Shown in pieces: positions 47 to 54,538 of a stretch of 64,000 nucleotides of DNA. Numbering within the stretch: the first letter of the stretch is position 1; each line of letters starts with the position of its first letter. Origin of the DNA: an uncultured Croceitalea sp. (GTDB lineage: Bacteria > Bacteroidota > Bacteroidia > Flavobacteriales > Flavobacteriaceae); assembly GCA_947495075.1 (NCBI GenBank), contig CANLXH010000001.1, positions 1,550,001 through 1,614,000 of the forward strand. The letters are read 5' to 3'. Position numbers and translations under genes: made by a program. The notes beneath the pieces are model-generated. The model ran no database searches. It was not told the origin of the DNA and saw nothing but the letters and a program-made list of their open reading frames with translations.

Positions 47-880
47 CTAATGATACTCTTCACCTCCTGAGACGTTCATTGCCTCACCTGTAATATAATC
101 TGCTTGGTCTGAAGCTAAAAAAGTAACTGCTTTGGCAATGTCTTCCACCAAGCCTGTCCGCTTCAAGGGATTTTTATCTACGATAGCTTGTAGATAGTCA
201 TCATAATCTTGACCTAGTTTTTCGCTAAAAAATTTATTCTGCCAATGTCCTAATCCTGTCGTAATATGATTTGGGCAAACTGCATTTACGCGAATTTTAT
301 GCGCCCCCAATTCTACCGCATTTGAGCGAGTTAAGCCAATCATACCATGTTTTGAAGCAGTATAAGCTGCAGCAAATGGGAATCCTGATTTTGCAGCTTG
401 GCTTGCAATATTAATTATTGCACCACCTTTACCTTGGTCAATCATAGCTATAGCCGCATGCTTGGAACATAGAAAAGCACCTTTAAGATTAACATCTAAA
501 ACGGCATCCCAGCTTTTCTCTTTGAATTCTTGAAAGGGTTCCATTATATAACCCACACCTGCATTGTTCACCATAATATCCACGCTACCAAAGGCATTTC
601 TTGTCTTTTTTACTAAATTTATCACTTGGTCTTCAAAACGAATATCGCAAACAATAGCGGTAGCATTCACCCCTTTGTTTTTCGCTTTTTTGACAATGGT
701 TTCCATATCTTCTGTAGTACCGATATGCTCTTCGCTAAAATTTTCACCTTGCGCAACACCTATATCTGAAATTACAACATTACAACCTTGTTCCGCCAGT
801 TTCAAAACGATAGCTTCACCGATACCATCGATGCGACCAGAGCCTGTAACAATTGCGGTTTTTCCTTTTAAATTATACAT
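47..880 (-). CDS. SDR family oxidoreductase
   Basis: This is a classical short-chain dehydrogenase of 277 residues, likely cytosolic and NAD(P)-dependent. A glycine-rich dinucleotide loop (TGSGRIDGIG, residues 12-21) is slightly longer than the usual TGxxxGIG. The NNAG motif lies near residue 105 and the catalytic YTASK near residue 175. It starts with ATG and is the last gene of a minus-strand unit of aldolase, RedY-like protein and SDR, with only 3 bp to the upstream gene. The unit is preceded by the TTAA operator at 2139-2171. It probably oxidises a hydroxyl or reduces a carbonyl of a pathway intermediate. The exact substrate cannot be read from sequence. Confidence 0.88.
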   Translation of the reverse strand: MYNLKGKTAIVTGSGRIDGIGEAIVLKLAEQGCNVVISDIGVAQGENFSEEHIGTTEDMETIVKKAKNKGVNATAIVCDIRFEDQVINLVKKTRNAFGSVDIMVNNAGVGYIMEPFQEFKEKSWDAVLDVNLKGAFLCSKHAAIAMIDQGKGGAIINIASQAAKSGFPFAAAYTASKHGMIGLTRSNAVELGAHKIRVNAVCPNHITTGLGHWQNKFFSEKLGQDYDDYLQAIVDKNPLKRTGLVEDIAKAVTFLASDQADYITGEAMNVSGGEEYH

Positions 881-883
881 GAA

Positions 884-1195
884 TTATGCGATTTGTTCTG
901 AAATAATGAACATCGGGTTATCGGCGAAAGACTGAAATTGAGCAGCAACTTTTTGCATAGCTTCTGAACTAGCTTCTTCACCCAATTTAGTCATATCATT
1001 GATTTGTAGCACTTCGCAATATTGATAAGGTGACGGATTTTCAGTACCCATTACATTACCTAATCTGAAGACTTTAAAATCATCTACGCAACTCATTTTA
1101 GAAGCCGTAGGAACATCGGTTTCTTTGGCCCACGCTTCGTAGGCTGCCTTTGAAGAGGCATTTTTTAAGTTAAATAATACGACTAGTGCTGACAT
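884..1195 (-). CDS. RedY/HapK-like dimeric alpha+beta barrel protein
   Basis: This is a small 103-residue protein without a signal peptide. Its layout is that of a ferredoxin-like dimeric alpha+beta barrel: an N-terminal LVVLFNLK strand, the motif AYEAWAKETDVP, a central VDDFKVFRLG and a C-terminal FADNPMFIISE. From memory this pattern matches the family named after RedY/HapK, found in prodigiosin (tripyrrole) gene clusters. No search was possible, and an EthD-like assignment is the alternative. It lies between the aldolase and SDR genes in one unit, so it probably assists a small-molecule step. A link to pyrrole chemistry would fit the CpcT/CpeT genes elsewhere in the island, but this is inference. 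Confidence 0.6.
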   Translation of the reverse strand: MSALVVLFNLKNASSKAAYEAWAKETDVPTASKMSCVDDFKVFRLGNVMGTENPSPYQYCEVLQINDMTKLGEEASSEAMQKVAAQFQSFADNPMFIISEQIA

Positions 1196-1212
1196 AATAT
1201 TGTTTTATTTAT

Positions 1213-1250
1213 CATTCTGACTTGCATCTCGACTCAGCTCGATGTGACAG
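1213..1250. repeat. Possible dispersed intergenic TCGA-rich repeat (copy 1)
   Basis: The segment contains CATCTCGACTCAGCTCGATG, an imperfect inverted repeat with TCGA on both sides of the centre. It lies between the aldolase and RedY-like genes, inside a presumed operon. Related segments are at 44667 and 46444. Confidence 0.4.
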
Positions 1251-1263
1251 AAACTCTATTAAA

Positions 1264-2857: not shown

Positions 2858-4204
2858 TTAGCTTATTAATTCTTTATAAACACGATTGGCAGACTCTGCC
2901 GCCGCTTCCATTCCTCTATTTTCGTGTGCCGTATGTTCGCCGGCAAAATGAACATTACCTGCAGGTTTTATCATATCTAAAAACCATTCTGCTTGTCCAG
3001 GAGCAAATTCAACATAAGCGCCTTTATTATATTCGTACTTACCCCAATTTTGAGTACCCAAATATTCCAGTTTACCTTTAGAAGCAGGTCTTATTTCGTT
3101 AATTTTTTTAATTGTGTAATCTGCAATTTCATTTTCAGTCATGGTATCAAAAAAAGCAGTTCCTTTTCCATTAACCCAACAAGCTATTTGCTTCTCTGTT
3201 GGTGACGAACTCATGTTCATGATACGCTCTATAGGGGTATCTGTCCACATATCTAATGGAACATCATCAATCTCCCAATAATTTTCGGTATGTGCTAAAT
3301 GAATTTGAGTAATATTCGTATAGGACAATTTTTTTATTGCCTTACTTTGATTCTTGTTAATCTTAGCATCCATTTTAACATCCCGTAACGTGGTGAAAGG
3401 CAACGTGCAAATGACTTTCTTTGCTTTATAGTTTGAGCCATCTTCACAGTTTACCGTAACACTGGCTCCTGAATCATTGATTTGAGTAATCATTTTGTTA
3501 ATTAGCACAGGCTTTTTGAGCGTATCAACTACTTTATTGATAAAATTAATAGTGCCTCCCTTGAAATTCAATGCTCTTTTAGAACCATTGTATTTACCAA
3601 AAGCTCTACTGTGATGCGCATTGATTGCCGAAGTTTTATAAATATCATTATAATTTAGGCTGATATCTGCCAGTTCAATTTCTTTATCCGAAAGCCCCTT
3701 CTGTTTTAAAAAAGTGGCGTAAGGCTCATCCATGTTTTTATTTTGATACCATTGGTCCAAACCAGATAAATAGTCCGATTTCCCTAATGCCATAAACTGT
3801 TGGATATAAGGTTTGATTTCCCCTTCTGGCCATGGATACTTTAACTCCCCATTCATGTAAACGGCGGTTGGAGCACTCATAAAATCCGTAATATCGATTA
3901 GCTCTGCCCCTACTTCGTTAATTAAAGGGAGTAAATTATCATATTTATCGCCAATACCTCTTCCCCCAACATCTCTATTGATATCGGTTCGTGTAAACAT
4001 TCTGCCACCCAATCGATTACTTCCTTCTAAAAGTATGTAGTCTTTCCCAGCTTTTTCTAGAAGATTGGCCAGAAACAATCCAGAAATACCTCCACCCAAA
4101 ATTAAATACTCTGTATCTGGTGCAGCTTTGGCACAAGATATAGGCAAGATTCCTAAAGCAGCACTTGCCAATACAGTATTTTGAATGAAGATTCTTCTAT
4201 TCAT
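2858..4204 (-). CDS. Exported FAD-dependent amine oxidase-like protein (1)
   Basis: This flavin monoamine oxidase family protein has 448 residues. The N-terminus has a twin-arginine motif (NRRIFIQN) and a hydrophobic stretch ending in a lipobox-like PISC, so Tat export and lipidation are likely. The FAD-binding GGGISG is at residues 37-42 with Glu60 as the ribose ligand, followed by GSNRLGGRM. The C-terminal HFAGEHTA motif, typical of the family, lies near residue 420. It sits between the LeuC- and LeuD-like genes, with only 3 bp to the former. Two paralogues occur at 18919 and 22469. It probably oxidises the pathway substrate or an early intermediate in the envelope. The amine specificity suggested by the family name need not hold. 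Confidence 0.88.
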   Translation of the reverse strand: MNRRIFIQNTVLASAALGILPISCAKAAPDTEYLILGGGISGLFLANLLEKAGKDYILLEGSNRLGGRMFTRTDINRDVGGRGIGDKYDNLLPLINEVGAELIDITDFMSAPTAVYMNGELKYPWPEGEIKPYIQQFMALGKSDYLSGLDQWYQNKNMDEPYATFLKQKGLSDKEIELADISLNYNDIYKTSAINAHHSRAFGKYNGSKRALNFKGGTINFINKVVDTLKKPVLINKMITQINDSGASVTVNCEDGSNYKAKKVICTLPFTTLRDVKMDAKINKNQSKAIKKLSYTNITQIHLAHTENYWEIDDVPLDMWTDTPIERIMNMSSSPTEKQIACWVNGKGTAFFDTMTENEIADYTIKKINEIRPASKGKLEYLGTQNWGKYEYNKGAYVEFAPGQAEWFLDMIKPAGNVHFAGEHTAHENRGMEAAAESANRVYKELIS

Positions 4205-4207
4205 CTA

Positions 4208-5476
4208 TTAAACATCAAAAGTTCTTGGATCAGTAATTTCTCCACGGATAGCCGAAGCAGCAACTACAGAAGGAGAGGTCAAATAAATCTCAGCTTTCTT
4301 ACTGCCCATTCTTCCTGTCATGTTTCGGTTTCCTGCACTTAAAACAATGTCACCATCTCCTGCCACTCCCGTATGTATGCCCGCACAGGCAGCACAACTT
4401 GGGGTATCAATAGCAACACCGGCTTTTATTAAAGTTTCTAAATGGCCAGCTTGTAGCGCCTCAAGGTACACTGTCTGACTGGCAGGCACTAAAATCATAT
4501 TTACGTCTCTATGAACCTGTTTGTCTTTCATGATTTCGGCCATCGTTGCAATATCCTCTAACCGCCCGTTTGTGCATGTTCCCACAAAGGCTTTATTGAA
4601 TTTTTTTCCTAGAAGTTTATCTACGGTAACTGTGTCATCCAGTTTGCCGGGCATTGCCAAGGTCGGTGCTAAATCAGAAATATCAATATCATACACCATA
4701 TCATACTCTGCGTCATCATCACTTGTCAAAAAATCCCATGTATCATTTGTACGATTTCTCAAATATCTTTCAGTAACCTTATCTGGAGCAACAATTCCAT
4801 TTTTCGCCCCAAGATCCACGGTCATATTGCAAAGTGTCATTCTGCCTGCCATACTTAAGCTCTCAATTGCAGGGCCCGTAAATTCTAATGCTTTGTATAA
4901 CAAATGGCCATTCCAATGCATCATCCCCATAATATGGAGACTTAAATCTTTAGCCATTACCCAAGGTTGCCATTTACCAGTAATATTAAACTTAACCGAC
5001 TTAGGAATTCTAAACCAAGCTTTACCTGTTGCCATAGCAACAGCAGCATCTGTTACGCCAATTGCATTACCCATAGCGCCAACTGCTCCGTAGGTATTTG
5101 CATGAGAATCAGTTCCTATACTAATAGTACCAGGAAGCACATGACCTTGTTCCACCATTATCTGGTGCGCAATACCCTGTCTACCTAAATCATAAAAATT
5201 GGTGATATCATGTTGTTTTACCACCTCTCGCCATTCGTTGAGCATATTGGCGAACTTCTGATTAGGGGGAGGCACCAAATGATCAGAAACACAAATTACA
5301 CGGTCTTTATCAAATACTTCAGTCTTGCCTAAAGACCTAAATTTGTCAAAACACGTTTTTCCAAGATAATCCATGGTCATAACTGTATGAATGTCAGTCC
5401 ATACCAATTCTCCTGGCATAACTTTATTTCTGCCGCTACTGCGAGCCATTATCTTTTCTGTAATGGTCATTCCCAT
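4208..5476 (-). CDS. Aconitase/IPM isomerase-family large subunit (LeuC-like)
   Basis: This is a [4Fe-4S] hydro-lyase large subunit of 422 residues. Cluster-ligand cysteines are visible in FVGTCTNGR (about 300) and PSCAACAGIH (about 361 and 364), and GTDSHANTYGA matches the family's GxDSHT motif. It is the first gene of a minus-strand unit with an exported oxidase and the LeuD-like subunit. That order is unusual for leucine biosynthesis. Known relatives include dimethylmaleate hydratase, isopropylmalate isomerase and homoaconitase. The context favours a hydratase for a substituted maleate, but the substrate is inferred. The shared operator at 5532-5564 lies 56 bp upstream. Confidence 0.88.
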   Translation of the reverse strand: MGMTITEKIMARSSGRNKVMPGELVWTDIHTVMTMDYLGKTCFDKFRSLGKTEVFDKDRVICVSDHLVPPPNQKFANMLNEWREVVKQHDITNFYDLGRQGIAHQIMVEQGHVLPGTISIGTDSHANTYGAVGAMGNAIGVTDAAVAMATGKAWFRIPKSVKFNITGKWQPWVMAKDLSLHIMGMMHWNGHLLYKALEFTGPAIESLSMAGRMTLCNMTVDLGAKNGIVAPDKVTERYLRNRTNDTWDFLTSDDDAEYDMVYDIDISDLAPTLAMPGKLDDTVTVDKLLGKKFNKAFVGTCTNGRLEDIATMAEIMKDKQVHRDVNMILVPASQTVYLEALQAGHLETLIKAGVAIDTPSCAACAGIHTGVAGDGDIVLSAGNRNMTGRMGSKKAEIYLTSPSVVAASAIRGEITDPRTFDV

Positions 5477-5531: not shown

Positions 5532-5564
5532 AGTTAACAATATTAATTATTAATAAAGTTAATC
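5532..5564. promoter_or_regulatory. TTAA-box operator, copy 2
   Basis: TTAA boxes start at 5534, 5543, 5550 and 5559 (9-7-9 spacing). The site lies between the divergent LeuC-like gene (minus) and the MFS transporter (plus), so one site may serve both promoters. Confidence 0.75.
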
Positions 5565-5725: not shown

Positions 5726-6997
5726 TTGGAAAAACGAAGCTTTAAGGAATTTAAATTTGGATGGCCTGTTATTTTATCATCAACTTTCGGAATTGGTTTA
5801 GGCATGTCTCCCCTTCCGTTTTACACTATAGGTGTTTTTGCCATACCGTTGACTAAAAACTTTGGATGGGGCATGGATACTGTTATGGGAGGGCTTACCG
5901 TATTTACTTTTGCAGCTTTGGTTGCGAGTCCTTTAGTAGGATATATTGCCGATAAAATTGGAGCACGTAAAACCGCTATGTGGTCTCTATTTCTATTTGG
6001 CCTCACATTTATAGCTTTTAATTTTAATACTGGCTCACCATTGCTATACTATATTTTATGGGGTCTTTTAGCCTTCACAGGAGCAGGAACATTGCCAATG
6101 ACCTGGACAAGAGCTATTAATAATTGGTTTAATGAAAATCGCGGTCTAGCTTTAGGGCTCTCACTCTTAGGTACAGGGTTATTTGGAGCATTTGCCAAAC
6201 TTTACGCTTTTTCACTGATTGAAAATTTTGGGTGGCAAACAGCTTATATCGGTGTTGGTCTTTTACCCATTCTTATCGCTTTACCCCTTGCTTTTTTCTT
6301 TTTTAGAGATACTGATGACCCCAAAGTAGCGAATAAACTAGCCAAACTTAGAGAAGAAGTGCCAAGTCACAAACAAGCAAATAAAGCTGGGCTAACTGTT
6401 AAACAAGCCCTTGCCGATTGGCGTTTTTGGATATTAGCATTTTGTTTTATTCTGATTTCTTTTGGCGTTGGTGGACCAATTCCAAATCTAGAGCGTCTAT
6501 TTAGTTCTAAGGGTTTTGATACTTCTGATGCGGTAATACTGGCAAGTTCCATTGGATATGCAGTCTTAATAGGTAGATTGGTTGGAGGCTATCTTATTGA
6601 CCGTTTTTGGGCACCAGCAGTTGCTTTTATATTATTAAGCATCCCCGCAATTTCATGTGTTTTGCTGCAATCGGCAGACCTAACCTATGCAAATGCTCTA
6701 ATTGCAGTGATTATTTTAGGGTTTGGAGCAGGTGTTGAATATGACCTTATGGCCTATCTGGTCTCTCGTTATTTTGGCATGAAAAATTATGCCGCCATTT
6801 ACGGTTTTCTTTATGGATTCTTTGCAGTAGGAGCAGGTTTTGGACCCGTAATTTTTGGTAAATTCTTTACCGCAAGCGGAAGTTATGATTCTATCTTGGG
6901 TTATGCTGCCATTGCTTTTATAGTTGGATCCATACCTTTGTTATTTTTAGGAAAATATCGTGTTTTTAAACCAGAAGAAGAAGTTTTAAAAGCCTAG
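5726..6997 (+). CDS. MFS transporter (OxlT-like)
   Basis: This major facilitator has 423 residues and about 12 hydrophobic segments. The cytoplasmic loop motif GYIADKIGARK lies near residue 75 after the second helix. The start is a TTG at 5726; no in-frame ATG lies close by, and the next methionine is residue 27, inside the first membrane helix. It is probably an inner-membrane importer of an organic acid or other intermediate. It forms a short unit with the following quinone-reductase-like gene (6-bp gap) and faces the LeuC-like gene across operator copy 2. The substrate cannot be told from sequence. Confidence 0.85.
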   Translation: MEKRSFKEFKFGWPVILSSTFGIGLGMSPLPFYTIGVFAIPLTKNFGWGMDTVMGGLTVFTFAALVASPLVGYIADKIGARKTAMWSLFLFGLTFIAFNFNTGSPLLYYILWGLLAFTGAGTLPMTWTRAINNWFNENRGLALGLSLLGTGLFGAFAKLYAFSLIENFGWQTAYIGVGLLPILIALPLAFFFFRDTDDPKVANKLAKLREEVPSHKQANKAGLTVKQALADWRFWILAFCFILISFGVGGPIPNLERLFSSKGFDTSDAVILASSIGYAVLIGRLVGGYLIDRFWAPAVAFILLSIPAISCVLLQSADLTYANALIAVIILGFGAGVEYDLMAYLVSRYFGMKNYAAIYGFLYGFFAVGAGFGPVIFGKFFTASGSYDSILGYAAIAFIVGSIPLLFLGKYRVFKPEEEVLKA

Positions 6998-7697: not shown

Positions 7698-8210
7698 CTA
7701 GTTATCCGAACGGGACTTTTGTCCGTTTGTTCTATTCTTTGGAAGGTCTACCCAAAATTGAGGATCAATACCATCTTGCCCGCATACTTTGCGTTCTTCA
7801 ATCATGGTTACTCCGTTGAACACATCTCCATCTGACCATTTCCAAACACGAATACGGTGGTCATCGTTCCCTATTAAATCTATTTGCTCGAACAATATCA
7901 TTCCCGGTCTGTGCTTGTATTCCCAAATAAGAACAACACTTCTCCCAGTTTCCCATGCTTTGCCCGAAAGTCTAGGGTTTTCAAAAATGAGGTTGCCATC
8001 ATCATCAAAAGGACATACCCCAAAATCAAGACATTCCTTAAAACCATCATCCCACATATATTCATTTACCTGATGATATTTTCTGTCTGGTAACATGGCA
8101 CAGGTAAGTCTACTATTCCATTGGTCAATAAGTTTACCGTCTGCTCCAATTCTTTTATACGTGCCTTCCCAAATACCCGCATGCTTTGGAAATAGTTTTA
8201 ATTCTTTCAT
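7698..8210 (-). CDS. DUF3598-like calycin-fold protein
   Basis: This is a 170-residue protein with no signal peptide. It resembles the DUF3598 family (recalled, not searched): an N-terminal GIWEGTYKRIGADGKLID, then a beta-rich run of YHQVNEYMWDDG, LIFENPRLSG and VVLIWEY. The family is seen mainly in cyanobacteria and plants and is thought to adopt a lipocalin-like barrel. It is a single-gene unit whose operator (8242-8274) ends only 31 bp before the ATG. A small-molecule or pigment-binding role would fit the CpcT/CpeT proteins nearby, but is inference. Confidence 0.55.
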   Translation of the reverse strand: MKELKLFPKHAGIWEGTYKRIGADGKLIDQWNSRLTCAMLPDRKYHQVNEYMWDDGFKECLDFGVCPFDDDGNLIFENPRLSGKAWETGRSVVLIWEYKHRPGMILFEQIDLIGNDDHRIRVWKWSDGDVFNGVTMIEERKVCGQDGIDPQFWVDLPKNRTNGQKSRSDN

Positions 8211-8241: not shown

Positions 8242-8274
8242 AGTTAATTATATTAATGATTAATAAAATTAACT
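8242..8274. promoter_or_regulatory. TTAA-box operator, copy 3
   Basis: TTAA boxes start at 8244, 8253, 8260 and 8269 (9-7-9), flanked by TAG and CTA so that the outer arms read TAGTTAA and TTAACTA. It is only 31 bp from the start codon of the DUF3598-like gene, where it must overlap the core promoter. This position favours a repressor. Confidence 0.75.
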
Positions 8275-8322: not shown

Positions 8323-9048
8323 TTAGTAGTTTATATAATCCATACTTTCCAGCTCATAGTGTGTTTGCATGTATCCAGCGGCTCCAGCTTTTAGAAAAAG
8401 ATAATCGTCATCTGCTGTAACCCAAACATGGTATGGTGGATGTTCTTCTAACAAACTACCAGCTGTATCACCAACTGAAAAATGTCTTGCTTTAAAGGTG
8501 CCTGCAGCCACAGTGACTTCTTCCTCACCATGATATTCGATACTCATTTTAGCCATTTTAAATAACATTGGACCCGTCGCTCCTCTGTGGTCCGGGGAAG
8601 TAAGTAAAAAATCTTCTATAAGTTGTTTGCCTTTTCCTTTGGATAAATCATATGCCTTCATTAGTAGACCATCTCCTAAAATAGGATGTGCCTGTAGCCA
8701 CTTTACAGGTGTTGCTGTTTCTATACGTTGCGAAATACGCCCATCTTTTGCGTTTATCATCTCGCACTCTGCATAAGTCGAGGTCACTCTAAACCATCCT
8801 GAACCTTCAAATTTATCACCTACCGAAAGTCGTACACTACAATCTAAAGGAGTGCCATCTTTTTCCATGGCAACGATGACATCTCGTACCACATTGGGTT
8901 CATCATCTATTTCACAATGCGCTTGCATTACCACAGTACCATTGCTCTGCGTAGTCAACGTAAAATATTCTCGTCCACGTTCTTGATCCATGCGTTCTGG
9001 TTTCTTACTGGTATATTTTATATGACCTCTAATAATCTTATGTTTCAT
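8323..9048 (-). CDS. Conserved hypothetical protein (DUF3108-like beta-rich)
   Basis: This is a 241-residue soluble protein without signal peptide or membrane segment. Its strand pattern (FEGSGWFRVTS, FKARHFSVGD, YHVWVTADDDYLFLKAG) loosely resembles DUF3108-type beta proteins. I do not recognise a catalytic motif. It is the last gene of the unit aceE, aceF, membrane protein and this gene, 1 bp from the upstream stop. Co-expression with pyruvate dehydrogenase genes in the island suggests a pathway accessory role that cannot be specified. Confidence 0.7.
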   Translation of the reverse strand: MKHKIIRGHIKYTSKKPERMDQERGREYFTLTTQSNGTVVMQAHCEIDDEPNVVRDVIVAMEKDGTPLDCSVRLSVGDKFEGSGWFRVTSTYAECEMINAKDGRISQRIETATPVKWLQAHPILGDGLLMKAYDLSKGKGKQLIEDFLLTSPDHRGATGPMLFKMAKMSIEYHGEEEVTVAAGTFKARHFSVGDTAGSLLEEHPPYHVWVTADDDYLFLKAGAAGYMQTHYELESMDYINY

Positions 9049-9745: not shown

Positions 9746-11365
9746 CTACATATTCCAGAGGAACCAATCTTCTAAAAGTTCTTTTATGTATTTTAAAAAA
9801 CGAGCAGCATCTGCCCCATTTATAATCCTATGATCAAAACCGATGGTCAATGGCATGATTAATCTTGGCTCAAAAGCATTATTGACCCATATAGCCTCGG
9901 TGGTACTCGCTGCTACCCCTAAAATAGCAGCTTGCGGATGATTTACCAAAGGAAAAATTGCAGAGGTACCAATTCCACCTAAATTGGAAATAGTGAAAGT
10001 TCCTCCTTGAAGTTCCTCCGGACTTACCTTCTTAGTCTTCACTTTTTCGGACAGTTGTATCAAGTCTTGAGAAATTTCCAGAATCCCTTTTGTATTGGCA
10101 TCTCGCAATACAGGAACCATAAGGCCCCTATCTGAATCTACAGCTACGCCTACATTGATATAATCCTTAAAAATAATCTCGTTTGTATTGCTATCAAGAC
10201 TAGTATTAAAAATAGGAAACTCTTCTAAAGCTTTGCCTACAACTTTTACCAAAATACTGGTAACTGTAAGCGCTCCATCTTTTTCTTTTACCTTATGCTT
10301 ATGAATTTGTCTTTTTGCTTCTAAAGCTGTGATATCAACTTTTTCTTGTAACCAGGCATGTGGAATCTGACTCCATGTAGTTGACATATTTTTACTGGTA
10401 GCCTGGGTAATACCGGCCATAGCTTGCCTTTTAACACTTCCCCACCTACTAAAATCTGGTAGCTCTATTTTTGATGTTGCCGCAACTGCACCTCTATTTT
10501 GGTGTAAAGCTTTGGAATACTCTTTAACATCTTGAACAGATATTCTATTACTACCTTCTGTCAAGGTCATTGTCGTGATATCTATACCTATCTCTCTTGC
10601 TATTTTTCTGGCTAAGGGTGATGATCTAAACTTACCTTTCCTTTCCATTTTCTGTATTGGCGAAGGCGCAAAAGTCACTGATTTTGAAATCTCTGCTGCG
10701 TCTGTGGAAGTTTTCATATTCGCTTCGGATTCTTTCCCCTTTTCAATACTACCTTCTTTAGGGGAATTGACTTCCGCTTTTAGCGAAATAATGGGTGCTC
10801 CCTCTCCTATTTCATCCCCAATTTTCACTAGTACTTTCTCGACAACGCCAGCTGCATCTGCAGGAACCTCAACCACAACCTTGTCAGTTTCTACTTCCAT
10901 TAGTGTTTGCTCTAATGTTATAGTGTCTCCATCTTCTACATGAATGGCTATTACCTTGCCTTTCTCTATTCCCTCACCTAAAGAAGGGAGCTTCAACTCA
11001 GTGATTCCTTGAACACCAGTATTAGCTTTTTTCTCGATTTTTTGTGTTACCTCTGGTTCACTTACAAGAGTCATTACCGCTTGCTTCTGTTCTTCTGAAA
11101 TGGCTACAGGCTCTGAAACAACTAGAGTTTGACCTTCGCTTAATTGAATAATTGGTGTGCCTTCACTTATTTCATCACCAATATTGACCAGCAATTTTTC
11201 CACTGTTCCTGATGCATCGGAGGGTACTTCTACCACTACTTTATCTGTTTCTACCTCCATTAATATTTGCTCTGTAGTAACCGAGTCACCTACTTTGACC
11301 GCGATAGAAATGATAGTTCCTTTCTCTATGCCTTCACCCAAGGATGGTAATTTAAGCTCCGTCAT
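9746..11365 (-). CDS. aceF: Dihydrolipoamide acetyltransferase, E2 of pyruvate dehydrogenase
   Basis: This E2 acyltransferase has 539 residues. It has two N-terminal lipoyl domains (about 1-75 and 118-195), each with the lipoylation motif ETDKVVVEVP. A linker leads to a peripheral-subunit-binding domain (about 246-285, SSPLARKIAREIGID) and a C-terminal catalytic domain with DHRIINGAD near 510. The catalytic His is near residue 512, and the usual Asp four residues on is Asn, as in some proteobacterial E2p enzymes. It lies 21 bp after aceE. No E3 gene is in the window, so a chromosomal dihydrolipoamide dehydrogenase must be shared. It should hand acetyl groups from pyruvate to CoA. Confidence 0.92.
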   Translation of the reverse strand: MTELKLPSLGEGIEKGTIISIAVKVGDSVTTEQILMEVETDKVVVEVPSDASGTVEKLLVNIGDEISEGTPIIQLSEGQTLVVSEPVAISEEQKQAVMTLVSEPEVTQKIEKKANTGVQGITELKLPSLGEGIEKGKVIAIHVEDGDTITLEQTLMEVETDKVVVEVPADAAGVVEKVLVKIGDEIGEGAPIISLKAEVNSPKEGSIEKGKESEANMKTSTDAAEISKSVTFAPSPIQKMERKGKFRSSPLARKIAREIGIDITTMTLTEGSNRISVQDVKEYSKALHQNRGAVAATSKIELPDFSRWGSVKRQAMAGITQATSKNMSTTWSQIPHAWLQEKVDITALEAKRQIHKHKVKEKDGALTVTSILVKVVGKALEEFPIFNTSLDSNTNEIIFKDYINVGVAVDSDRGLMVPVLRDANTKGILEISQDLIQLSEKVKTKKVSPEELQGGTFTISNLGGIGTSAIFPLVNHPQAAILGVAASTTEAIWVNNAFEPRLIMPLTIGFDHRIINGADAARFLKYIKELLEDWFLWNM

Positions 11366-11386
11366 TTTCTTTTGCTTTAAATTGAA

Positions 11387-14065: not shown

Positions 14066-14134
14066 GTTACTCCTATTTTTGGGGAACACATATTCGATAG
14101 ATTCCCCGATAAAATATCTAAAATATAAAAAATT

Positions 14135-14167
14135 AGTTAACAATGTTAATTATTAATGTTATTAATT
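14135..14167. promoter_or_regulatory. TTAA-box operator, copy 4
   Basis: TTAA boxes start at 14137, 14146, 14153 and 14162 (9-7-9). The site lies between divergent aceE (70 bp) and the amidohydrolase (37 bp). A TATATTTA at 14171-14178 next to it resembles the Bacteroidetes -7 element for the rightward promoter. Confidence 0.75.
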
Positions 14168-21349: not shown

Positions 21350-21382
21350 AATTAATTATATTAACAATTAACTAAGTTAACT
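21350..21382. promoter_or_regulatory. TTAA-box operator, copy 5
   Basis: TTAA boxes start at 21352, 21361, 21368 and 21377 (9-7-9). The site lies between the divergent DUF1838 unit (minus, 45 bp) and the SUMF1-like unit (plus, 113 bp). Confidence 0.75.
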
Positions 21383-26418: not shown

Positions 26419-26500
26419 TGTGTTCAATTTAGTCTTCAGTAATTAAAACGAGGGCTTTTAAATTGACAGTTTAAAGTTTATTTAATAGCAATTTACCAAA

Positions 26501-36536: not shown

Positions 36537-36569
36537 AGTTAACTATATTAATCATTAATTATATTAACT
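36537..36569. promoter_or_regulatory. TTAA-box operator, copy 8
   Basis: TTAA boxes start at 36539, 36548, 36555 and 36564 (9-7-9). It sits between the divergent aldehyde dehydrogenase unit and the long HMG-CoA-lyase-like unit, which may run to 46427. Confidence 0.75.
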
Positions 36570-38791: not shown

Positions 38792-38792
38792 A

Positions 38793-42783: not shown

Positions 42784-43734
42784 ATGAAAGAAGACCCAGG
42801 ATATTATGAGTATTGGCCTTATGAAAATCGACCAAAGATTGAATGGCCCAATGGTGCTAAAGTCGCTTTTTGGGTAGCACCGAATATTGAGTTTTATGAG
42901 TTGAATCCGCCAGATAATCCATTTCGAAAACCTTGGCCGCAACCTAGTCCCGCACTACCAGGTTACACGAGTCGAGACTGGGGGAATCGAGTTGGCCACG
43001 TGCGCCAAATGGAATTATTGGAAAAGTATGGCATTCGAGGTTCCATTTCACTATCAACGGCTTTATGCGACCATCATCCTGAAATTATTGAACTATGTAA
43101 AGAGCGTGATTGGGAATTCTTCAGCCATGGTATTTACAACACGCGTTACACCTATGGAATGACTGAAGCCCAAGAACGGGAAATGATAAAGGATTCTATT
43201 GAAACTATTTACAAACATACAGGGCAAAAATGTGCGGGTTACTTGGCCCCTGCCCTATCTCATTCCGAAAACACTCTGGATTTATTCGCTGAAGTAGGTA
43301 CGGAGCTTTTTGGAGATGAAGCAGGAATTTACTCTTGTGATTTATTCCATGATGACCAACCCACGCCTATTCATTTGAGAAGTGGAAAAAAATTTGCTTC
43401 GATTCCGTATTCACTAGAAATGAACGATACTATCGCCTATTTGGTACAAAAAACTACGCCAAGAAGGTACGGTAAAGAGCTTAAAGATAACTTTGACCGT
43501 TTGTATGCCGAAGGCGCTGAAAGTGGAACGATAATGTGTATTCCTACACATAACTACCAGGTAAGCAATGCCCATAGAATTAAGGCGTATGAAGAGGCAC
43601 TTGAATATATAACAGGACATTCTGATGTTTGGGTAACCACTGGAAAAGAAATCGCACAATACTTTTTAGACAATTATTATGATGACACGTTAGCCGATAT
43701 CAAAACTAAGAACAAGAAATATGGCAATGCTTAA
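42784..43734 (+). CDS. PuuE-like polysaccharide deacetylase-fold cyclic amide/imide hydrolase (1)
   Basis: This is a 316-residue protein of the polysaccharide deacetylase (CE4) fold, close to the PuuE allantoinase branch. IEWPNGAKVAFWVAPNIEFYEL, WGNRVGHVRQMELLEKYGIRGSISL and FFSHGIYN are typical. The TFDDG motif and the HxxxH zinc pair of true deacetylases are absent, as in the metal-independent allantoinase. It has no signal peptide. It overlaps the second copy by 14 bp and follows the amidase gene. No ureide-pathway gene is near, so allantoin is unlikely. A five-membered cyclic imide such as a maleimide is the favoured substrate class. Confidence 0.86.
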   Translation: MKEDPGYYEYWPYENRPKIEWPNGAKVAFWVAPNIEFYELNPPDNPFRKPWPQPSPALPGYTSRDWGNRVGHVRQMELLEKYGIRGSISLSTALCDHHPEIIELCKERDWEFFSHGIYNTRYTYGMTEAQEREMIKDSIETIYKHTGQKCAGYLAPALSHSENTLDLFAEVGTELFGDEAGIYSCDLFHDDQPTPIHLRSGKKFASIPYSLEMNDTIAYLVQKTTPRRYGKELKDNFDRLYAEGAESGTIMCIPTHNYQVSNAHRIKAYEEALEYITGHSDVWVTTGKEIAQYFLDNYYDDTLADIKTKNKKYGNA

Positions 43735-44647
43735 TGACGATTACTTAAAATACCCTGAGCGTTCCTATGGAATGGATCATGGCCGTTACGAGTGGTCAAT
43801 GCTACAGGATAGAAAAACGGTACAGTGGCCCAACGGAAAGAAAATAGCACTTTGGGTCAATGTGGGACTGCAATTTTTTCCGTTGAACCAAAAAGGGGTT
43901 CCCTTTAAAGTTCCTGGTGGCATGACCAAACCATATCCTGATTTAAGACATTACAGTTTGCGTGATTATGGCAATCGGGTAGGTATTTATCGGTTTCTAA
44001 AGGCTTTTGATAAATACAATATCACACCTACTTTCGCAGTGAATACAAGATTGGCAGAACGCATTCCGTATTTGATGAACATGATCAAAGAAAGTGGCGA
44101 TGAAATAATGTGTCATGGGTATACCATGGATGATTTACACTATGGTGGACAAGATATCGCTGAAGAAAAAGAACTGATAAAACGTTCATTAGACGGGCTT
44201 CGGAAATTATCTGGACAAGATATCACCGGATGGATTAGCCCTGCTAAGAATGAATCTGAAAATACTCCAGATATTCTTGCTTCAAATGGAATTAAATATT
44301 TCTGCGATTGGGTAAATGATGATATGCCTTATGATTTTAACACCAAAAATGGTAATTTGATAGCGATGCCATTACCGACTGAATTGGATGATTATTTTAT
44401 TATTAACAATAATTTACATTCTGCCGAAGACTGGGCCGATCAAGTAGAGGATGCCTTTGAATTCTTATTGAAAGAAAGTAAATCTGCTGGTGGACGGATA
44501 TTGGCATTAAATATACATCCATGGGTATTGGGGCAACCTCATCGAATTCAGTATCTTGAACGGGTGCTGGAAAAGTTGGGTAGCCATGCTGATGTATGGT
44601 CGACATCCGTTAATAGTATTGCAAATGCTTGGAAGAATCAACAATAA
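43721..44647 (+). CDS. PuuE-like polysaccharide deacetylase-fold cyclic amide/imide hydrolase (2)
   Basis: This is a 308-residue paralogue of the preceding gene. It has WPNGKKIALWVNVGLQFFPL, RDYGNRVGIYRFLKAFDKYNI and IMCHGYTMDD, again without the zinc motif. The two copies differ in the presumed pocket (SHGIYNTR versus CHGYTMDD; LAPALSHSEN versus ISPAKNESEN), suggesting different ring substituents or a hetero-oligomer. It starts at ATG 43721 within the end of the first copy, so translation is coupled. Confidence 0.85.
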   Translation: MAMLNDDYLKYPERSYGMDHGRYEWSMLQDRKTVQWPNGKKIALWVNVGLQFFPLNQKGVPFKVPGGMTKPYPDLRHYSLRDYGNRVGIYRFLKAFDKYNITPTFAVNTRLAERIPYLMNMIKESGDEIMCHGYTMDDLHYGGQDIAEEKELIKRSLDGLRKLSGQDITGWISPAKNESENTPDILASNGIKYFCDWVNDDMPYDFNTKNGNLIAMPLPTELDDYFIINNNLHSAEDWADQVEDAFEFLLKESKSAGGRILALNIHPWVLGQPHRIQYLERVLEKLGSHADVWSTSVNSIANAWKNQQ

Positions 44648-47320: not shown

Positions 47321-48070
47321 CTACTTCTTTTCAAACTTGGTATTATCGGAATTAATAAATCCAGGTTCTATGAAAGTCCAACCTGTAACCACTTTTCTCA
47401 GATTAATTCCAGTTCTCTTAGCACTCGGGTTTAACCAAGTATAACTTATAGAACGACTATTAATTTCAACACTGTCCATGGGCATATCATAAATAGCCAA
47501 TTTCATAATTGGTAATTTATGAGCAAATAATAATTGTGTTAGCTCTGCTGTATATTGTACTCCATCAATATCAATTTCTGCCATTCCACCCTGATCGTGA
47601 ATTGTGAGATTACTATTTCTGTTGATGCTATCTTTATATTTTTGAGAAGGCATTTCAATCCATCCAGAAAACTTTCGCGTTCTAATGAATTTGTAGGGCT
47701 CCTGATTTTTAAAATGCTTCATTCCAGTAACCCACAAGGTGTCCACATCCAATTTAAAAGAAGTTATTAATTCTTCATTCGAAAGTTTTACTTTTTCCAC
47801 TAAAGTCTTCCCATTTCTACCTTCTCGTATCTCTATATAAGGAGCTTCTTCTAACACTTTCGAAATATTTAGAGAGAAATGTCTATGCTTATCATCAGTT
47901 TCTGTTCGATGGATATCATCGGCTGTATTCTCAAGCCAGTATTGTTGAAAGTTATCCCAATGGCCTTCAAAAACTTGTTCCTCGATTTGAACTATAGATT
48001 GTTTGGTTTTTGTCTCCTTACAGCTAAAGAAAAATAAGGTTATAGCTAATAGAATAACTATTTTTTTCAT
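47321..48070 (-). CDS. Divergent CpcT/CpeT-like lipoprotein with C-terminal IHDQGG domain (5)
   Basis: This is a 249-residue lipoprotein (lipobox FFSC near residue 17). The N-terminal third keeps FEGHWDNFQQYW and a DKHRHFSL segment like its paralogues, but the middle of the family core is reduced. The C-terminal domain starts with TIHDQGGMAEID near residue 160 and ends with YTWLNPSAKRTGINLRK, the same signature as in the proteins at 17054 and 23985. It lies between a hydrolase-fold gene and an SDR gene. It may be a shortened ligand-binding protein of the same system. Confidence 0.68.
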   Translation of the reverse strand: MKKIVILLAITLFFFSCKETKTKQSIVQIEEQVFEGHWDNFQQYWLENTADDIHRTETDDKHRHFSLNISKVLEEAPYIEIREGRNGKTLVEKVKLSNEELITSFKLDVDTLWVTGMKHFKNQEPYKFIRTRKFSGWIEMPSQKYKDSINRNSNLTIHDQGGMAEIDIDGVQYTAELTQLLFAHKLPIMKLAIYDMPMDSVEINSRSISYTWLNPSAKRTGINLRKVVTGWTFIEPGFINSDNTKFEKK

Positions 48071-49131: not shown

Positions 49132-49164
49132 AGTTAATATAGTTAATTATTCATAATATTAACT
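49132..49164. promoter_or_regulatory. TTAA-box operator, copy 9
   Basis: Boxes start at 49134 (TTAA), 49143 (TTAA), 49150 (TTCA, one mismatch) and 49159 (TTAA), again 9-7-9. It lies between the divergent hydrolase unit (15 bp from its ATG) and the reductase unit (37 bp). Confidence 0.72.
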
Positions 49165-51319: not shown

Positions 51320-51376
51320 ATCTATACTGTTTTGTTTATCAAAATATGTTGGCAAAGTAGTAAATAATAAAAAAAT

Positions 51377-51430: not shown

Positions 51431-52441
51431 ATGATGAGATATAAAGCCTTAGCGTTGCAGACAGAGTGTTTTGCCATTAATAAATGTGTGGACCAATCTT
51501 CGTCTTATGCCACTATGGAAAAATCTTTACAAAAAGTATTGGCTGAAACCAAAGGCTCAAAGGCATTTATAGGCTCTGATTTAAAATTAGTTGTCCTACC
51601 AGAATATTTTTTAACTAGCTTTCCTTTCGGAGAAAGTATGAAACAGTGGAGGGAAAAAGCATGTTTATCTACTAGCGATGATTTGTTTAAGCAGATGATG
51701 GAATTTTGCGCTCAACAATCTATTTTTCTTTCCGGAAATTTTTATGAGCTAGATGATAATTTTCCTGAGCTCTATTTTCAAAGTAGTTTTATTATCGATG
51801 ACAAAGGTGAACTAATCTTAAAATACCGAAGGTTAAATTCGATGTTTGCACCCACTCCCCATGATGTAATGGACGAGTATTTAAAAATTTACGGTTATGA
51901 AGCCTTGTTTCCCGTTGTCGACACCAAATTAGGAAAGTTAGCTTGCATTGCCTCTGAAGAAATATTATATCCTGAAATTGCTAGATGTCTTATGATGAGA
52001 GGTGCCGAAGTTTTTCTACACTCATCATCAGAAGCTGGTAGCCCGCAGCTTACTCATAAAGAAGTTGCCAAAAGAGCAAGGGCTATTGAAAACATATGTT
52101 ATGTAATATCGTCAAATTCTGCAGGTATTTCAGGTATTGATTTTCCTTTTGCAGCAACCGACGGGCTTTCCAAAGTAGTTAGTTATGAAGGTCATATTTT
52201 ATCGGAAGCAGGAACAGGAGGCAGTATGGTAGCTAATAGCTATTTAGATATCGAAGCATTGCGAGATTATCGTTCAAAAGTATCCATGCAAAATTATAAT
52301 GCGAGACAACGTTTTGAATTATATGCACCCTCTTACACAAATTATTCGCATTATCCTGCAAATAGTTTTGTAAAAGAAAAACCATCAAAAGAATTGTTTA
52401 TAAAAACACAGTTAAACGTGATTAAAAAGCTTAAAAATTAA
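51431..52441 (+). CDS. Nitrilase-superfamily protein with substituted catalytic residues
   Basis: This is a 336-residue carbon-nitrogen hydrolase-fold protein. The catalytic Glu remains in LPEYF (about residue 57). The usual Lys (as in YRK) is Arg134 (KYRR), and the nucleophilic Cys (as in ICYEILFPE) is Ser175 in ASEEILYPE. Cys172, three residues earlier, is not in the usual position. It may be a distinct subfamily that is catalytically altered or uses another residue. It heads the unit of nitrilase-like, MarR and class V aminotransferase genes behind operator copy 10. Confidence 0.87.
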   Translation: MMRYKALALQTECFAINKCVDQSSSYATMEKSLQKVLAETKGSKAFIGSDLKLVVLPEYFLTSFPFGESMKQWREKACLSTSDDLFKQMMEFCAQQSIFLSGNFYELDDNFPELYFQSSFIIDDKGELILKYRRLNSMFAPTPHDVMDEYLKIYGYEALFPVVDTKLGKLACIASEEILYPEIARCLMMRGAEVFLHSSSEAGSPQLTHKEVAKRARAIENICYVISSNSAGISGIDFPFAATDGLSKVVSYEGHILSEAGTGGSMVANSYLDIEALRDYRSKVSMQNYNARQRFELYAPSYTNYSHYPANSFVKEKPSKELFIKTQLNVIKKLKN

Positions 52442-52495
52442 ATTGTATTGTTCATTTTTGATAGCTGATTAATCCCCACAAAAGAAGAAGAAATT

Positions 52496-53008
52496 ATGAT
52501 AGAAAAGAGCATTGAAGAGTCAATTGTATTAAGCATTTTTGATTTGGCAAACCAACTTAAAAAAATTGGTGATGAAGTTTATCAAAAAGTAGGTTTAACA
52601 ACGCAACAATGGCTTATTCTTTTACATTTAGCAGATAACCCAAACCTTCCTTTTTTTAAAAGGGAAACTCACAAAAAAGCTTTAATGGCCAGTGAATTAG
52701 CTGATTCTTTGAATGTATCTAGAGCTAATATCACTAATCTTATAAATGTTTTATTAGAAAAAAATTTAGTAAGACAGTATGAAGATGCCAACGATAGAAG
52801 AAAAAAAAGGTTAGAGCTTACCAAAGAAGGTTTAGAATTATTAAACAGGACTCAACCTTCACGTCTTGCGGTTATTATGTATTTGACTGAAGGATTTAGC
52901 CAAGAAGAAAAAGAAACCTTCTTAAGGTTTATAGAGGCATGCATGAATAAGGTGACTAATGAAGATGAAAAAATTAAATCTTTTCACCAATTATTAGTAG
53001 AAGTCTAA
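52496..53008 (+). CDS. MarR-family transcriptional regulator, candidate master regulator of the island
   Basis: This is a 170-residue winged-helix protein. The recognition region is MASELADSLNVSRANITNLINVLLEKNLV (about residues 63-92), and the wing carries DANDRRKKRLELT, the DxR signature of MarR proteins. It is the only transcription factor gene between 47 and 54538. Its operon begins behind a variant of the TTAA palindrome present ten times in the island. MarR dimers bind palindromes and are often released by phenolic or other small ligands, so a pathway intermediate may be the inducer. The pairing of this protein with these sites is inference. Confidence 0.9.
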   Translation: MIEKSIEESIVLSIFDLANQLKKIGDEVYQKVGLTTQQWLILLHLADNPNLPFFKRETHKKALMASELADSLNVSRANITNLINVLLEKNLVRQYEDANDRRKKRLELTKEGLELLNRTQPSRLAVIMYLTEGFSQEEKETFLRFIEACMNKVTNEDEKIKSFHQLLVEV

Positions 53009-53032
53009 GCATTAAAAAAAATACTGTTTCCT

Positions 53033-54538
53033 ATGAATGTTGATGCTCTAATACCAACGGACAACTCCACAGAACTAGAAAATCATTTTAAAGCTTTTAA
53101 AAAGCATATTATCGGAAATGAAGTAAAGTTTGAATCAGTTCATGGTTCAAAAAAGCTACTTTATGCCGATTGGATAGCTAGTGGAAGATTATATGGCCCA
53201 ATAGAAGACAGAATGCGAAATGTAATAGGACCAATGGTTGCCAACACCCATTCTTTTTCAAGTGAAACAGGCAAAGCCTCTACGTATGCTTACAAATATG
53301 CAAGGGAAATTATTAAAAAACACGTAAATGCAAGTGATGCCGACGTCTTAGTTACGTCTGGTACTGGTATGACAGGAGTTCTTTCTAGACTTCAACGTGT
53401 AATGGGTTTGCGTTGGCCAGATTCAGTTAAGAGTAAAATTAAGATTGCCCCAAAAGACAGACCAGTCGTATTCATTTCACATATGGAGCATCACTCAAAT
53501 CATGTTCCATGGATGGAAACCATTGCGGATGTTGTCATTGTTCCCTGTAACGAAAATAATCTTGTTTGCCCTGTAAGTCTTGATAGAGAGGCTAAAAAAT
53601 ATTTAGACAGACCAAATAGAATAGGTGCATTTACGGCATGCTCAAATGTAACAGGAATAATTACACCATACCATGAATTAGCAAAAGTTATGCATCAAAA
53701 TGATGGTATTTGCATTATGGATTTCGCAGCTTCTGCTCCTTATGTAGATATAAACATGCACCCTGAGGACGATGAAGAACGATTAGATGCTGTATGTTTT
53801 TCTCCACATAAATTTCTTGGTGGTCCTGGAACTTGCGGAATACTGGTTTTTAATGAATCTTTATACAACACCAACTGCCCAGATGTACCCGGAGGAGGTA
53901 ATGTAAAATGGACTACACCTAAAGGAGATTATGGCTATCATCCAGATATTGAGACAAAAGAAGATGGAGGTACTCCTGGTTTTTTACAGGTAATGCGTAC
54001 TGCATTGGCAATACGGTTAAAGGATGAAATGGGTACTGAAAATATTGAGAAACGCGAAGAGGAGCTTTTGGCACTTTGTTTTGAAAGATTGAAAAAAATA
54101 CCAAACCTTTTTATCTTAGGTAATAATTCTGAAAAACGAATTGGTGTGGTATCTTTTGGAATTGATGGTATTCATTACAACCTTATTGTTCGCCTACTCA
54201 ATGATATCTATGGTATACAAGTTCGTGGTGGATGGTCTTGTGCAAGTACTTATGGGCATTTTCTATTTAACCTAGATGAGAGTACCTCAAAACAAATAAT
54301 TACTGATATAGAAAATAAAAACTTAACAGATAAGCCTGGTTGGGTTCGTTTATCATTGCACCCAGTCACTACAAATGAAGAATTATTTTTTATTTGTAAT
54401 GCGATAAAAGAGGTATCGGAAAATATTGAAGAGCTACAAAAAGATTATACTTATAATCCAAAAAGTAATGAGTTTGATCATAATAAAATTGGGGATGAAA
54501 AAATTATGCAGACTGTTGAAGAGTGGTTTACCATTTAA
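53033..54538 (+). CDS. Aminotransferase class V-fold PLP enzyme
   Basis: This is a 501-residue class V (cysteine desulfurase/CsdA-like) PLP protein. The PLP Lys is Lys260 in FSPHKFLGGPGTCG, with an Asp in IMDFAAS upstream for the pyridine nitrogen. Long N- and C-terminal parts set it apart from IscS-type desulfurases. GGWSCASTYGH near residue 400 holds a Cys that could serve as an active-site thiol. It lies 24 bp after the MarR gene. The reaction is uncertain: transamination, desulfurisation or C-N lyase activity. Confidence 0.86.
   Translation: MNVDALIPTDNSTELENHFKAFKKHIIGNEVKFESVHGSKKLLYADWIASGRLYGPIEDRMRNVIGPMVANTHSFSSETGKASTYAYKYAREIIKKHVNASDADVLVTSGTGMTGVLSRLQRVMGLRWPDSVKSKIKIAPKDRPVVFISHMEHHSNHVPWMETIADVVIVPCNENNLVCPVSLDREAKKYLDRPNRIGAFTACSNVTGIITPYHELAKVMHQNDGICIMDFAASAPYVDINMHPEDDEERLDAVCFSPHKFLGGPGTCGILVFNESLYNTNCPDVPGGGNVKWTTPKGDYGYHPDIETKEDGGTPGFLQVMRTALAIRLKDEMGTENIEKREEELLALCFERLKKIPNLFILGNNSEKRIGVVSFGIDGIHYNLIVRLLNDIYGIQVRGGWSCASTYGHFLFNLDESTSKQIITDIENKNLTDKPGWVRLSLHPVTTNEELFFICNAIKEVSENIEELQKDYTYNPKSNEFDHNKIGDEKIMQTVEEWFTI

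Follow-up and report, generated by a model that had tools for sequence, protein, structure and literature searches.

The question raised by this locus is which compound an uncultured Croceitalea sp. takes up and breaks down with a long, jointly controlled array of genes. The stretch analyzed here (the window) comprises 64,000 nucleotides, C1:1550001-1614000 of a 3.73-Mb genome in 15 contigs, and 53 genes at positions 47-54538 (g01-g53) were annotated by Pfam scans; coordinates below are window positions followed by the strand (+ or -), unless a contig (C1) or another locus (L number) is named, and G numbers denote genomes. The nearest relatives, judged by the half-amidase described below, belong to Maribacter, Croceitalea and other Flavobacteriaceae, and the host is a marine-type bacterium. 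An earlier note on this DNA had read the 54 kb as a singly regulated catabolic island, possibly for pyrrole pigments. With somewhat better than even confidence, we propose that the genes constitute a regulon for the catabolism of linear (opened) tetrapyrroles, or of fragments that arise by their oxidation. The best-supported part of this proposal is that a core of imidases, half-amidase, LeuCD-type hydratases and lyase would form a pathway for disubstituted maleimides, of which hematinic acid is the likeliest natural substrate; the tetrapyrrole substrate is a second claim, less well supported than the maleimide core.

The genes are tied together by a 31-bp operator, RTTAAY-N3-RTTAAY-N-RTTAAY-N3-RTTAAY. 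A pattern search of the window permitting three mismatches yielded nine sites, compared with 0.02 expected from shuffles: eight perfect copies (2140-2170, 5533-5563, 8243-8273, 14136-14166, 21351-21381, 26502-26532, 26692-26722 and 36538-36568; no strand assigned) and one copy with one mismatch (49133-49163; likewise), seven of the nine being located in divergent gaps. An imperfect extra copy was found at 51368. Across the genome, the operator was matched with no more than one mismatch at 11 sites, all within C1:1534982-1599163 (64 kb); a single poor match with three mismatches lay outside the island at 1644563, and the reversed pattern, used as a control, gave four forward matches at up to three mismatches. 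The operator also recurred, at up to two mismatches, in 24 of the 25 loci of flavobacterial relatives (L047-L071). Thus, the repeated operator of the earlier note is real, and the 54-kb limit was abandoned: two operator copies and further gene families occur in the 15 kb left of the window, so that the island extends 15-22 kb leftward and measures ~69 kb, or ~77 kb if the divergent operon beyond the leftmost operator is counted. The latter operator lies in the gap between the left-hand island genes and this operon, which encodes subunits of a biotin-dependent acyl-CoA carboxylase and a methylmalonyl-CoA mutase (above cut-off); by context the carboxylase would be a propionyl-CoA carboxylase, and the names that fit it best in NCBIfam are those of subunits of acetyl-CoA carboxylase and methylmalonyl-CoA decarboxylase. 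The left-hand stretch (L180) additionally encodes hydantoinase A and B (HyuAB), an FAD_binding_2 flavoenzyme, a protein resembling the major facilitator superfamily (MFS), and more VOC-like proteins (one by Pfam, the rest by eye). The sole DNA-binding Pfam match among the 53 genes is the MarR regulator g52 (52496-53008, +; PF12802), and a 49% identical MarR gene is present near the triad (defined below) in a second Bacteroidota family (G013). Of the claim of single regulation, the shared operator therefore stands and control by one regulator is plausible, with g52 as the candidate that may bind the operator.

The enzyme inventory was largely borne out by the family searches. The core contains an isochorismatase-type half-amidase candidate, g41 (42118-42780, +), and two imidase candidates of the polysaccharide-deacetylase/PuuE type, g42 (42784-43734, +) and g43 (43721-44647, +). 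In the alignment, g41 shares a Lys and a Cys, presumably the catalytic residues, with the isochorismatase-family hydrolase 4l07, which we take to be the maleamate amidase of nicotine degradation. Two LeuC/LeuD pairs were confirmed: in set 1, g06 (large subunit, 4208-5476, -; PF00330), which passes only generic LeuC/aconitase subfamily cut-offs, and g04 (small subunit, 2318-2845, -; PF00694), which falls below the NCBIfam cut-offs; in set 2, g35/g36 (37556-39302, +), of which g35 passes generic LeuC subfamilies and g36 the LeuD/DmdB family cut-off (198.5 vs 108.95 bits). Each set has a candidate carbon-carbon lyase. That of set 1 is the HpcH/HpaI-type aldolase g03 (1264-2037, -; PF03328), which is HpaI-like, below NCBIfam cut-offs, and kept beside the set 1 LeuCD genes in G013, G131 and G283; that of set 2 is the HMG-CoA-lyase-type (HMGL) g34 (36654-37556, +), which passes NF004283 (290.9 vs 246 bits). 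A CoA-transferase III, g38 (39867-41048, +; PF02515), is ~46-54% identical to homologues in cognate proteobacterial clusters, and g12/g13 (9746-14143, -) encode an AceF/AceE 2-oxoacid dehydrogenase, AceE passing TIGR00759 and AceF falling below cut-offs. With the nitrilase-superfamily amidase g51 (51431-52441, +; PF00795) and HyuAB, the C-N hydrolases of the island fall into four families that are unrelated to one another, the other two being the PuuE-type imidases and the isochorismatase-type half-amidase.

A comparison of homologous clusters across Flavobacteriia and sphingomonads, proposed with the original interpretation, revealed the same module in both and beyond the Bacteroidota. One genome per species (84,980 species) was scanned with g41 and its orthologue from Novosphingobium sp. 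THN1, and of the 236 relatives from this single scan the best 80 were retained as loci, a set that leans toward the kin of the window; each locus spanned at most 20.7 kb, so that more distant parts were missed. Counts were obtained by tblastn, open reading frames of high-GC loci were chosen by a simple rule and the gene strings hence miss some genes, and draft bins may be incomplete or include contigs of foreign origin. The half-amidase is present in 80/80 loci by construction, imidase 1 in 79/80 and imidase 2 in 77/80 (at least 35% identity); the three occur together, as a triad, in 77 of the 80 loci, and are adjacent in the same order in 74. The three loci lacking imidase 2 sit on contigs of 3.2-4.0 kb. 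Near the triad, at 27% identity or more, LeuC was found in 60, HMGL in 45 and a lyase of the isocitrate lyase/phosphoenolpyruvate mutase (ICL/PEPM) type in 17 of the 80 loci; a carbon-carbon lyase of some kind was present in 62 and CoA-transferase III in 44. The two lyase types were together in none of the 80 loci, but a rule of mutual exclusion was rejected because both are found, alongside two LeuCD pairs, on plasmids pJE1 and pTomTYG65b; we therefore make no claim as to which LeuCD/lyase set serves hematinic acid. The hosts are titled as Flavobacteriia, Saprospiria and Alpha-, Beta- and Gammaproteobacteria, together with one Marinimicrobia bin (L110), which, despite its title, groups with Rhodospirillaceae-type loci. 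A search with the flavin oxidase g22 led to megaplasmids of Novosphingobium, and plasmid pTHN of strain THN1 (Lake Taihu) carries a cognate cluster at roughly 388-465 kb with homologues of g41 (63%), g01 (53%), g38 (52%), g42 (50%), g24 (48%), g10 (45%), g07 (43%), g31 (41%), g02 (38%), g43 (36%), g34-g36 and the FAD oxidases (31-36%); no CpcT hit was obtained in this cluster by tblastn. The core was also observed on pTomTYG65b, on pJE1 and on an Acidiphilium plasmid where insertion sequences lie nearby (L192, L193, L194), which suggests mobility.

Evidence bearing on the substrate of the core comes from a gene that accompanies it elsewhere. A glutaryl-CoA dehydrogenase (GCDH) gene lies near the triad in 10/80 loci (L088, L090, L091, L093, L094, L095, L097, L107, L110 and L119), counted at 69-100% identity to the query, which is L088 itself; an eleventh hit of 27% in L098 was not counted. 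The assignment is supported by matches to solved glutaryl-CoA dehydrogenases (PDB 3gnc, E 2.6e-176). In L090, L093 and L094 the gene immediately precedes the half-amidase in the same orientation, ending 38-52 bases before the match. Hematinic acid is 3-(2-carboxyethyl)-4-methylmaleimide, the oxidation product of propionate-bearing pyrrole rings; hydrolysis of the imide and of the half-amide, hydration and C-C cleavage on the methyl side convert it into pyruvate and glutarate, and the carbon balance of this conversion was computed. Cleavage of the hydrated carboxyethyl-methylmaleate in this manner would call for a GCDH, as found beside the triad, although the fit between GCDH and hematinic acid was not on record ahead of the gene lists for the 60 loci that were clustered (L041-L046 and L073-L126, the flavobacterial ones being left out). 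In addition, genes for tripartite ATP-independent periplasmic (TRAP) transporters are near the triad in eight of these 60 loci (L080 and seven Halomonas-type loci). TRAP-type transporters take up carboxylates, and their presence beside minimal versions of the triad is in keeping with the uptake of hematinic acid as such.

The tetrapyrrole claim draws on a further set of genes, a putatively exported module. Five CpcT/CpeT-family proteins had been proposed; four were recovered with PF06206, namely the two-domain proteins g17 (17054-18085, +; E 4e-19) and g23 (23985-24974, +; E 1e-21) and the proteins g18 (18189-18902, -; E 3e-19) and g28 (30815-31507, +; E 6e-32). They are the only PF06206 matches in the genome, all within the island. 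The fifth, g47 (47321-48070, -), has no Pfam hit, matches the CpcT-domain profile, built partly from proteins of the window, only weakly (E 2.6e-8), and belongs instead with the second domain of g17 and g23 (E 3e-24 against its profile). A profile of 26 long CpcT-type proteins (A3) found one PDB sequence, the phycocyanobilin lyase CpcT (4o4o/4o4s, E 1.3e-20), with an alignment of about 200 residues covering chain residues 5-198 of 4o4o; the family call thus holds at the level of sequence comparison. As a single query, g23 gave only weak partial matches in four genomes, apart from its own, among 395 of the order, and one weak match among plasmids. Beside these genes stand three Amino_oxidase flavoproteins (PF01593) of the monoamine oxidase (MAO) type, g05 (2858-4204, -; E 3e-43), g19 (18919-20430, -; 36-37% identical to homologues in Novosphingobium clusters) and g22 (22469-23974, +; best solved match MAO-B, E 8e-36). 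Their number agrees with the earlier count, and they are probably exported: all three show an RR motif and a lipobox by eye, while g19 and g22 failed the count of N-terminal hydrophobic runs which, with inspection of leaders and no validated predictor, was the basis of all export calls. The cytochrome c g24 (25004-25456, +; PF00034) is a possible electron acceptor, and the TonB-dependent receptor g26 (26842-29466, +; PF00593, PF07715) is, as had been noted, unaccompanied by a SusD match in the scans of g01-g53. The regulon also contains three DUF1838 proteins (PF08894): g20 (20415-21305, -), g25 (25525-26427, -; 60-68% identical to homologues in Henriciella clusters) and one in the left-hand stretch (L180:8170-9111, E 1.5e-65). 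A DUF1838 profile found no solved relative; the recurrence of the family in such clusters suggests a role in the pathway.

CpeT-family genes are associated with the module across several classes. PF06206 was detected in 41 of the 80 triad genomes (34/50 plus 7/30). Among the alphaproteobacteria, 13/37 triad genomes contained it, compared with 2/288 background genomes, the latter being other genomes from the class of G777, unsorted by triad content (Fisher 6e-12, kinship uncorrected). In a Bacteroidota sample of 395, the frequencies were 3/3 for genomes with the half-amidase at E 1e-40 or better, including the window's own, and 25/392 for the remainder (Fisher 3e-4, kinship again uncorrected). 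On a half-amidase tree of 79 loci (L072 absent) and the window gene, built by a quick method with SH-aLRT support only, the distribution of CpcT requires at least 11 changes, or 6 if only the starred branches are trusted. Physical clustering was also observed. Bins of Kordiimonadaceae and Emcibacteraceae (L177, L178) show the order FAD oxidase, unknown gene, CpcT, CoA-transferase and HMGL; Marinicaulis (L173, L174) combines CpcT with LeuCD, CoA-transferase, HMGL, FAD oxidase, HapK and a short-chain dehydrogenase/reductase (SDR); and Halieaceae L175 has HapK, SDR and CpcT in a row with LeuC and FAD oxidase. The second Bacteroidota family (G013, G034, G131) carries a compact set including CpcT. 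In a third family, an FAD oxidase-CpcT pair adjoins LeuCD sets near a long TonB-receptor-like protein (by eye) in G283, and occurs in G341 with LeuCD sets absent from the stretch examined. The number of copies is highest in five Rhodospirillaceae-type bins (G775, G777, G779, G780 and G1094; L088, L091, L095, L097 and L107), with 9-15 CpeT matches on many contigs.

From these gene families we infer the following route, in all of its reactions and in its substrate. The pigment would enter the periplasm through the TonB receptor and may be held there by the CpcT/CpeT proteins, whose cyanobacterial counterparts bind bilins, and by other small proteins that are exported. The MAO-type oxidases with cytochrome c, together with the VOC and DUF1838 proteins, would oxidize the pigment and separate its rings, and HyuAB and the two imidases would open the lactam and imide rings. 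The half-amidase would then remove ammonia to give disubstituted maleates, the two LeuCD-type hydratases would convert these into substituted malates, and the lyases (HMGL with CoA-transferase; HpcH) would cleave the latter. Hematinic acid, from the propionate-bearing rings, would yield pyruvate and glutarate or glutaryl-CoA, the latter passing to GCDH; rings with methyl and ethyl or methyl and vinyl groups would yield C3 and C4 acids for AceEF and the acyl-CoA carboxylase/methylmalonyl-CoA mutase operon. Two LeuCD/lyase sets would suit the distinction between pyrrole rings that bear a propionate and those that do not, and, with the CpcT association, the importer and the probably exported oxidases and cytochrome c, they form the basis for proposing that the island feeds on linear tetrapyrroles. 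The pigment may be a phycobilin, a phyllobilin or a haem bilin, or may be taken up as oxidation fragments. The earlier proposal of passage from pyrrole pigment through maleimides and alkylmaleates to pyruvate was therefore strengthened by the recurrence of the module in other phyla, by GCDH and TRAP genes and by the enrichment and clustering of CpeT, but not at the ring-cutting step.

Several observations weigh against this reading. Ring separation has no assigned enzyme, and MAO-type oxidases lie within 10 kb of the triad in just 6/80 loci (at least 27% identity). No haem oxygenase (PF01126) was found in the genome, which would speak for the import of already opened pigment in this organism. 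Of the 80 triad genomes, 39 gave no CpeT match; these include the sphingomonads, the genomes of Halomonas type, Rhodocyclaceae and UKL13-2, so that bilins are not implied by the core alone. Around CpeT genes in G777 and G779, 12 stretches (L159-L170) contained neither the triad nor an HMGL/CoA-transferase pair, and some of these copies lie among housekeeping genes, others beside VOC-like and DUF2269-like neighbors. Orphan single-domain CpcT genes with no shared neighbors were also observed in Bacteroidota (L188-L191); they outscore most cluster copies against PF06206, and this family alone was accordingly discarded as a mark of the pathway. The ten GCDH loci represent two lineages on the half-amidase tree and are thus recurrent, not massive, evidence; GCDH itself is outside the window's island, the nearest copy in the genome (49% identical) being elsewhere. 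Moreover, the imidases reach only 103 and 118 bits, compared with an allantoinase cut-off of 424.6 bits, and g41 is equally near N-carbamoylsarcosine amidohydrolase and 4l07; the substrates of imidases and half-amidase are therefore guesses, and these enzymes are identified at family level only.

Some of these points have a rival explanation, namely that the core does degrade hematinic acid and alkylmaleimides while its hosts eat only free fragments from chemical decay, with the CpcT, oxidase and VOC genes serving another ligand or mopping up pigment. This would fit the minimal, CpcT-less versions of Halomonas-type genomes with their TRAP transporters, the GCDH genes that adjoin the triad in the CpcT-less genomes of L090, L093 and L094, and the many CpeT copies outside clusters (L159-L170). 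However, CpcT genes are enriched and are found within cognate clusters of several classes and Bacteroidota families, and the island encodes a TonB receptor, a type of importer that usually serves larger substrates; we therefore regard this explanation as unlikely. It is quite improbable, in our judgment, that the substrate is another N-heterocycle, of the pyridine, pyrrolidine alkaloid, hydantoin or pyrimidine type, degraded through an end resembling the maleamate or dimethylmaleate pathways, with GCDH incidental. The alignment of the half-amidase with both 4l07 and N-carbamoylsarcosine amidohydrolase, the resemblance of the imidases to allantoinase and that of the relatives' ICL/PEPM lyases to 2,3-dimethylmalate lyase, among others, would suit such a pathway. 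So would a Terrarubrum plasmid (L196:15001-20771), on which a half-amidase relative (59%) is accompanied by two amidases, ABC transporter genes and a RidA protein, with no imidase hits in that stretch; the half-amidase family may serve another pathway there, a further point against our proposal. Yet when the 53 genes and ten left-hand proteins were scanned with Pfam, neither a molybdenum hydroxylase nor another pyridine-ring enzyme was found; the repeated CpcT association would be left unexplained, and GCDH recurs in two lineages.

Two other substrate classes fit the gene content poorly. A nitrogen-free terpenoid or steroid, with the CpcT-like proteins as mere small-molecule carriers, is brought to mind by the SBF-family transporter g44 and CurA-type reductases in the window, by the many sphingomonad hosts, one of them named estronivorus (L123), and by one host isolated from alpha-tomatine-treated soil (H35). 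Four unrelated C-N hydrolase families have little place in such a pathway, and a term search of the main text of PMC10653915 found no mention of isochorismatase or isopropylmalate; we hold this possibility to be very unlikely. Still less credible is a role of the island in the synthesis or modification of a pigment resembling a bilin or prodigiosin. Members of the HapK/RedY and CpcT families are known from pigment pathways, and a methyltransferase dependent on S-adenosylmethionine (SAM) is encoded in the left-hand part; but the same scans of 53 genes and ten left-hand proteins found no polyketide, peptide-synthetase or bilin reductase family, and breakdown is favored by the importers and by the sets of hydratases, lyases, CoA-transferase and 2-oxoacid dehydrogenase. 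Taken together, the results argue for a catabolic regulon for opened tetrapyrroles or their fragments. In its widest form, this proposal would make the locus the first complete route recognized in bacteria for using carbon and nitrogen from pigments of the chlorophyll and haem types: modular, distributed over Bacteroidota and Alpha-, Beta- and Gammaproteobacteria, partly plasmid-borne, with a shared hematinic acid/alkylmaleimide core. Its upstream module would be exported, and there CpcT-type bilin binders, at up to 15 matches per genome, would serve to digest pigment and not to harvest light. To this extended claim we give slightly less than an even chance.

The remaining genes of the island are less readily placed. 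The SDR g01 (47-880, -; PF13561) and the HapK/RedY-like protein g02 (884-1195, -; PF11639, E 1.4e-8) form a pair kept across phyla; homologues of g01 are 53% identical in pTHN and 51-54% in Halieaceae and Marinicaulis, where they adjoin HapK. Pfam confirmed the earlier calls for g02, for the cytochrome c and, barely above the cut-off, for the DUF3598 protein g09 (7698-8210, -; PF12204, E 4e-5), a homologue of which adjoins the set 1 LeuCD genes in G013, G131 and G283. The DUF3108-like protein g10 (8323-9048, -; below the Pfam cut-off) has homologues of 44-66% identity in several cognate clusters, and g07 (5726-6997, +; PF07690) is an MFS transporter. The SAM-dependent methyltransferase of the left-hand part (L180:10610-12198, equivalent to G000:C1:1543110-1544698) has a long N-terminal part and a partner of 134 aa with no Pfam hit; its relatives occur in 22 of the 60 clustered loci and in G013. 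A methyltransferase is an odd member of a breakdown pathway. To the right of the island (55537-59618), GH26- and GH15-family proteins and an MFS transporter were observed, with no operator.

The assigned enzymes are all of known families, and the regulon follows an ordinary catabolic logic; what would be new, if confirmed, is the pathway and the class of substrate, and CpcT-type proteins would gain a second role. We know of no enzymes for digesting opened pyrrole pigments of the kind that chlorophyll, haem and algal bilins leave behind. Chlorophyll is made and degraded on a scale of 10^12 kg per year, and what further becomes of its products in abiotic decay and herbivory is described as largely open (PMC7318184). 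The same paper reports hematinic acid in leaves and cites reports of maleimides and hematinic acid in senescent leaves and lake sediments, which counts in favor of our proposal; maleimides were not detected in the authors' own leaf samples (PMC7318184), an additional point that counts against it. With the triad as a searchable core, it would become possible to test in leaves, soil, blooms and sediments how microbes recycle the carbon and nitrogen of pigments; the gene set also bears on the use of maleimides as sediment biomarkers.

Comparison with known systems places the locus among several partial likenesses. In the open-access literature, with subscription papers and preprints mostly outside the search, we found no description of bacterial catabolism of bilins, hematinic acid or maleimides. 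Unlike a SusCD-type polysaccharide utilization locus, the annotated genes encode no SusD-type lipoprotein (Pfam scans of g01-g53). The maleamate pathway of nicotinate and nicotine (NicF type) has in common with the island an isochorismatase-fold half-amidase, and presumably maleamate-type chemistry, but the half-amidase of the island is accompanied by LeuCD hydratases, lyases and two imidases, and no pyridine-ring hydroxylase or ring-cleaving enzyme was detected in the 53 genes and ten left-hand proteins. Nicotinate fermentation in Eubacterium barkeri, with DmdAB and 2,3-dimethylmalate lyase, shares the LeuCD-type hydratase, and the ICL/PEPM-type lyase of that branch is present in relatives of the island; the window itself has HMGL with CoA-transferase and HpcH, no ICL/PEPM-type dimethylmalate lyase by Pfam scans, and a feed that would come from imide hydrolysis. 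Prodigiosin-type clusters share the HapK domain (g02, PF11639), and no carrier-protein, polyketide or condensing genes of tripyrrole synthesis appeared in the scans of g01-g53. The chemical breakdown of chlorophyll and haem, according to PMC7318184, leads to propentdyopents, bilirubin oxidation end products (BOXes), maleimides and hematinic acid; it is itself non-enzymatic, and yields compounds that the island core would consume. A likeness in a single family is that with the CpcT/CpeT lyases of cyanobacteria (PF06206; 4o4o/4o4s), which have the same domain as the island proteins, whereas the latter appear by eye to carry N-terminal export signals, often possess a second domain, and occur as several paralogues within a catabolic regulon.

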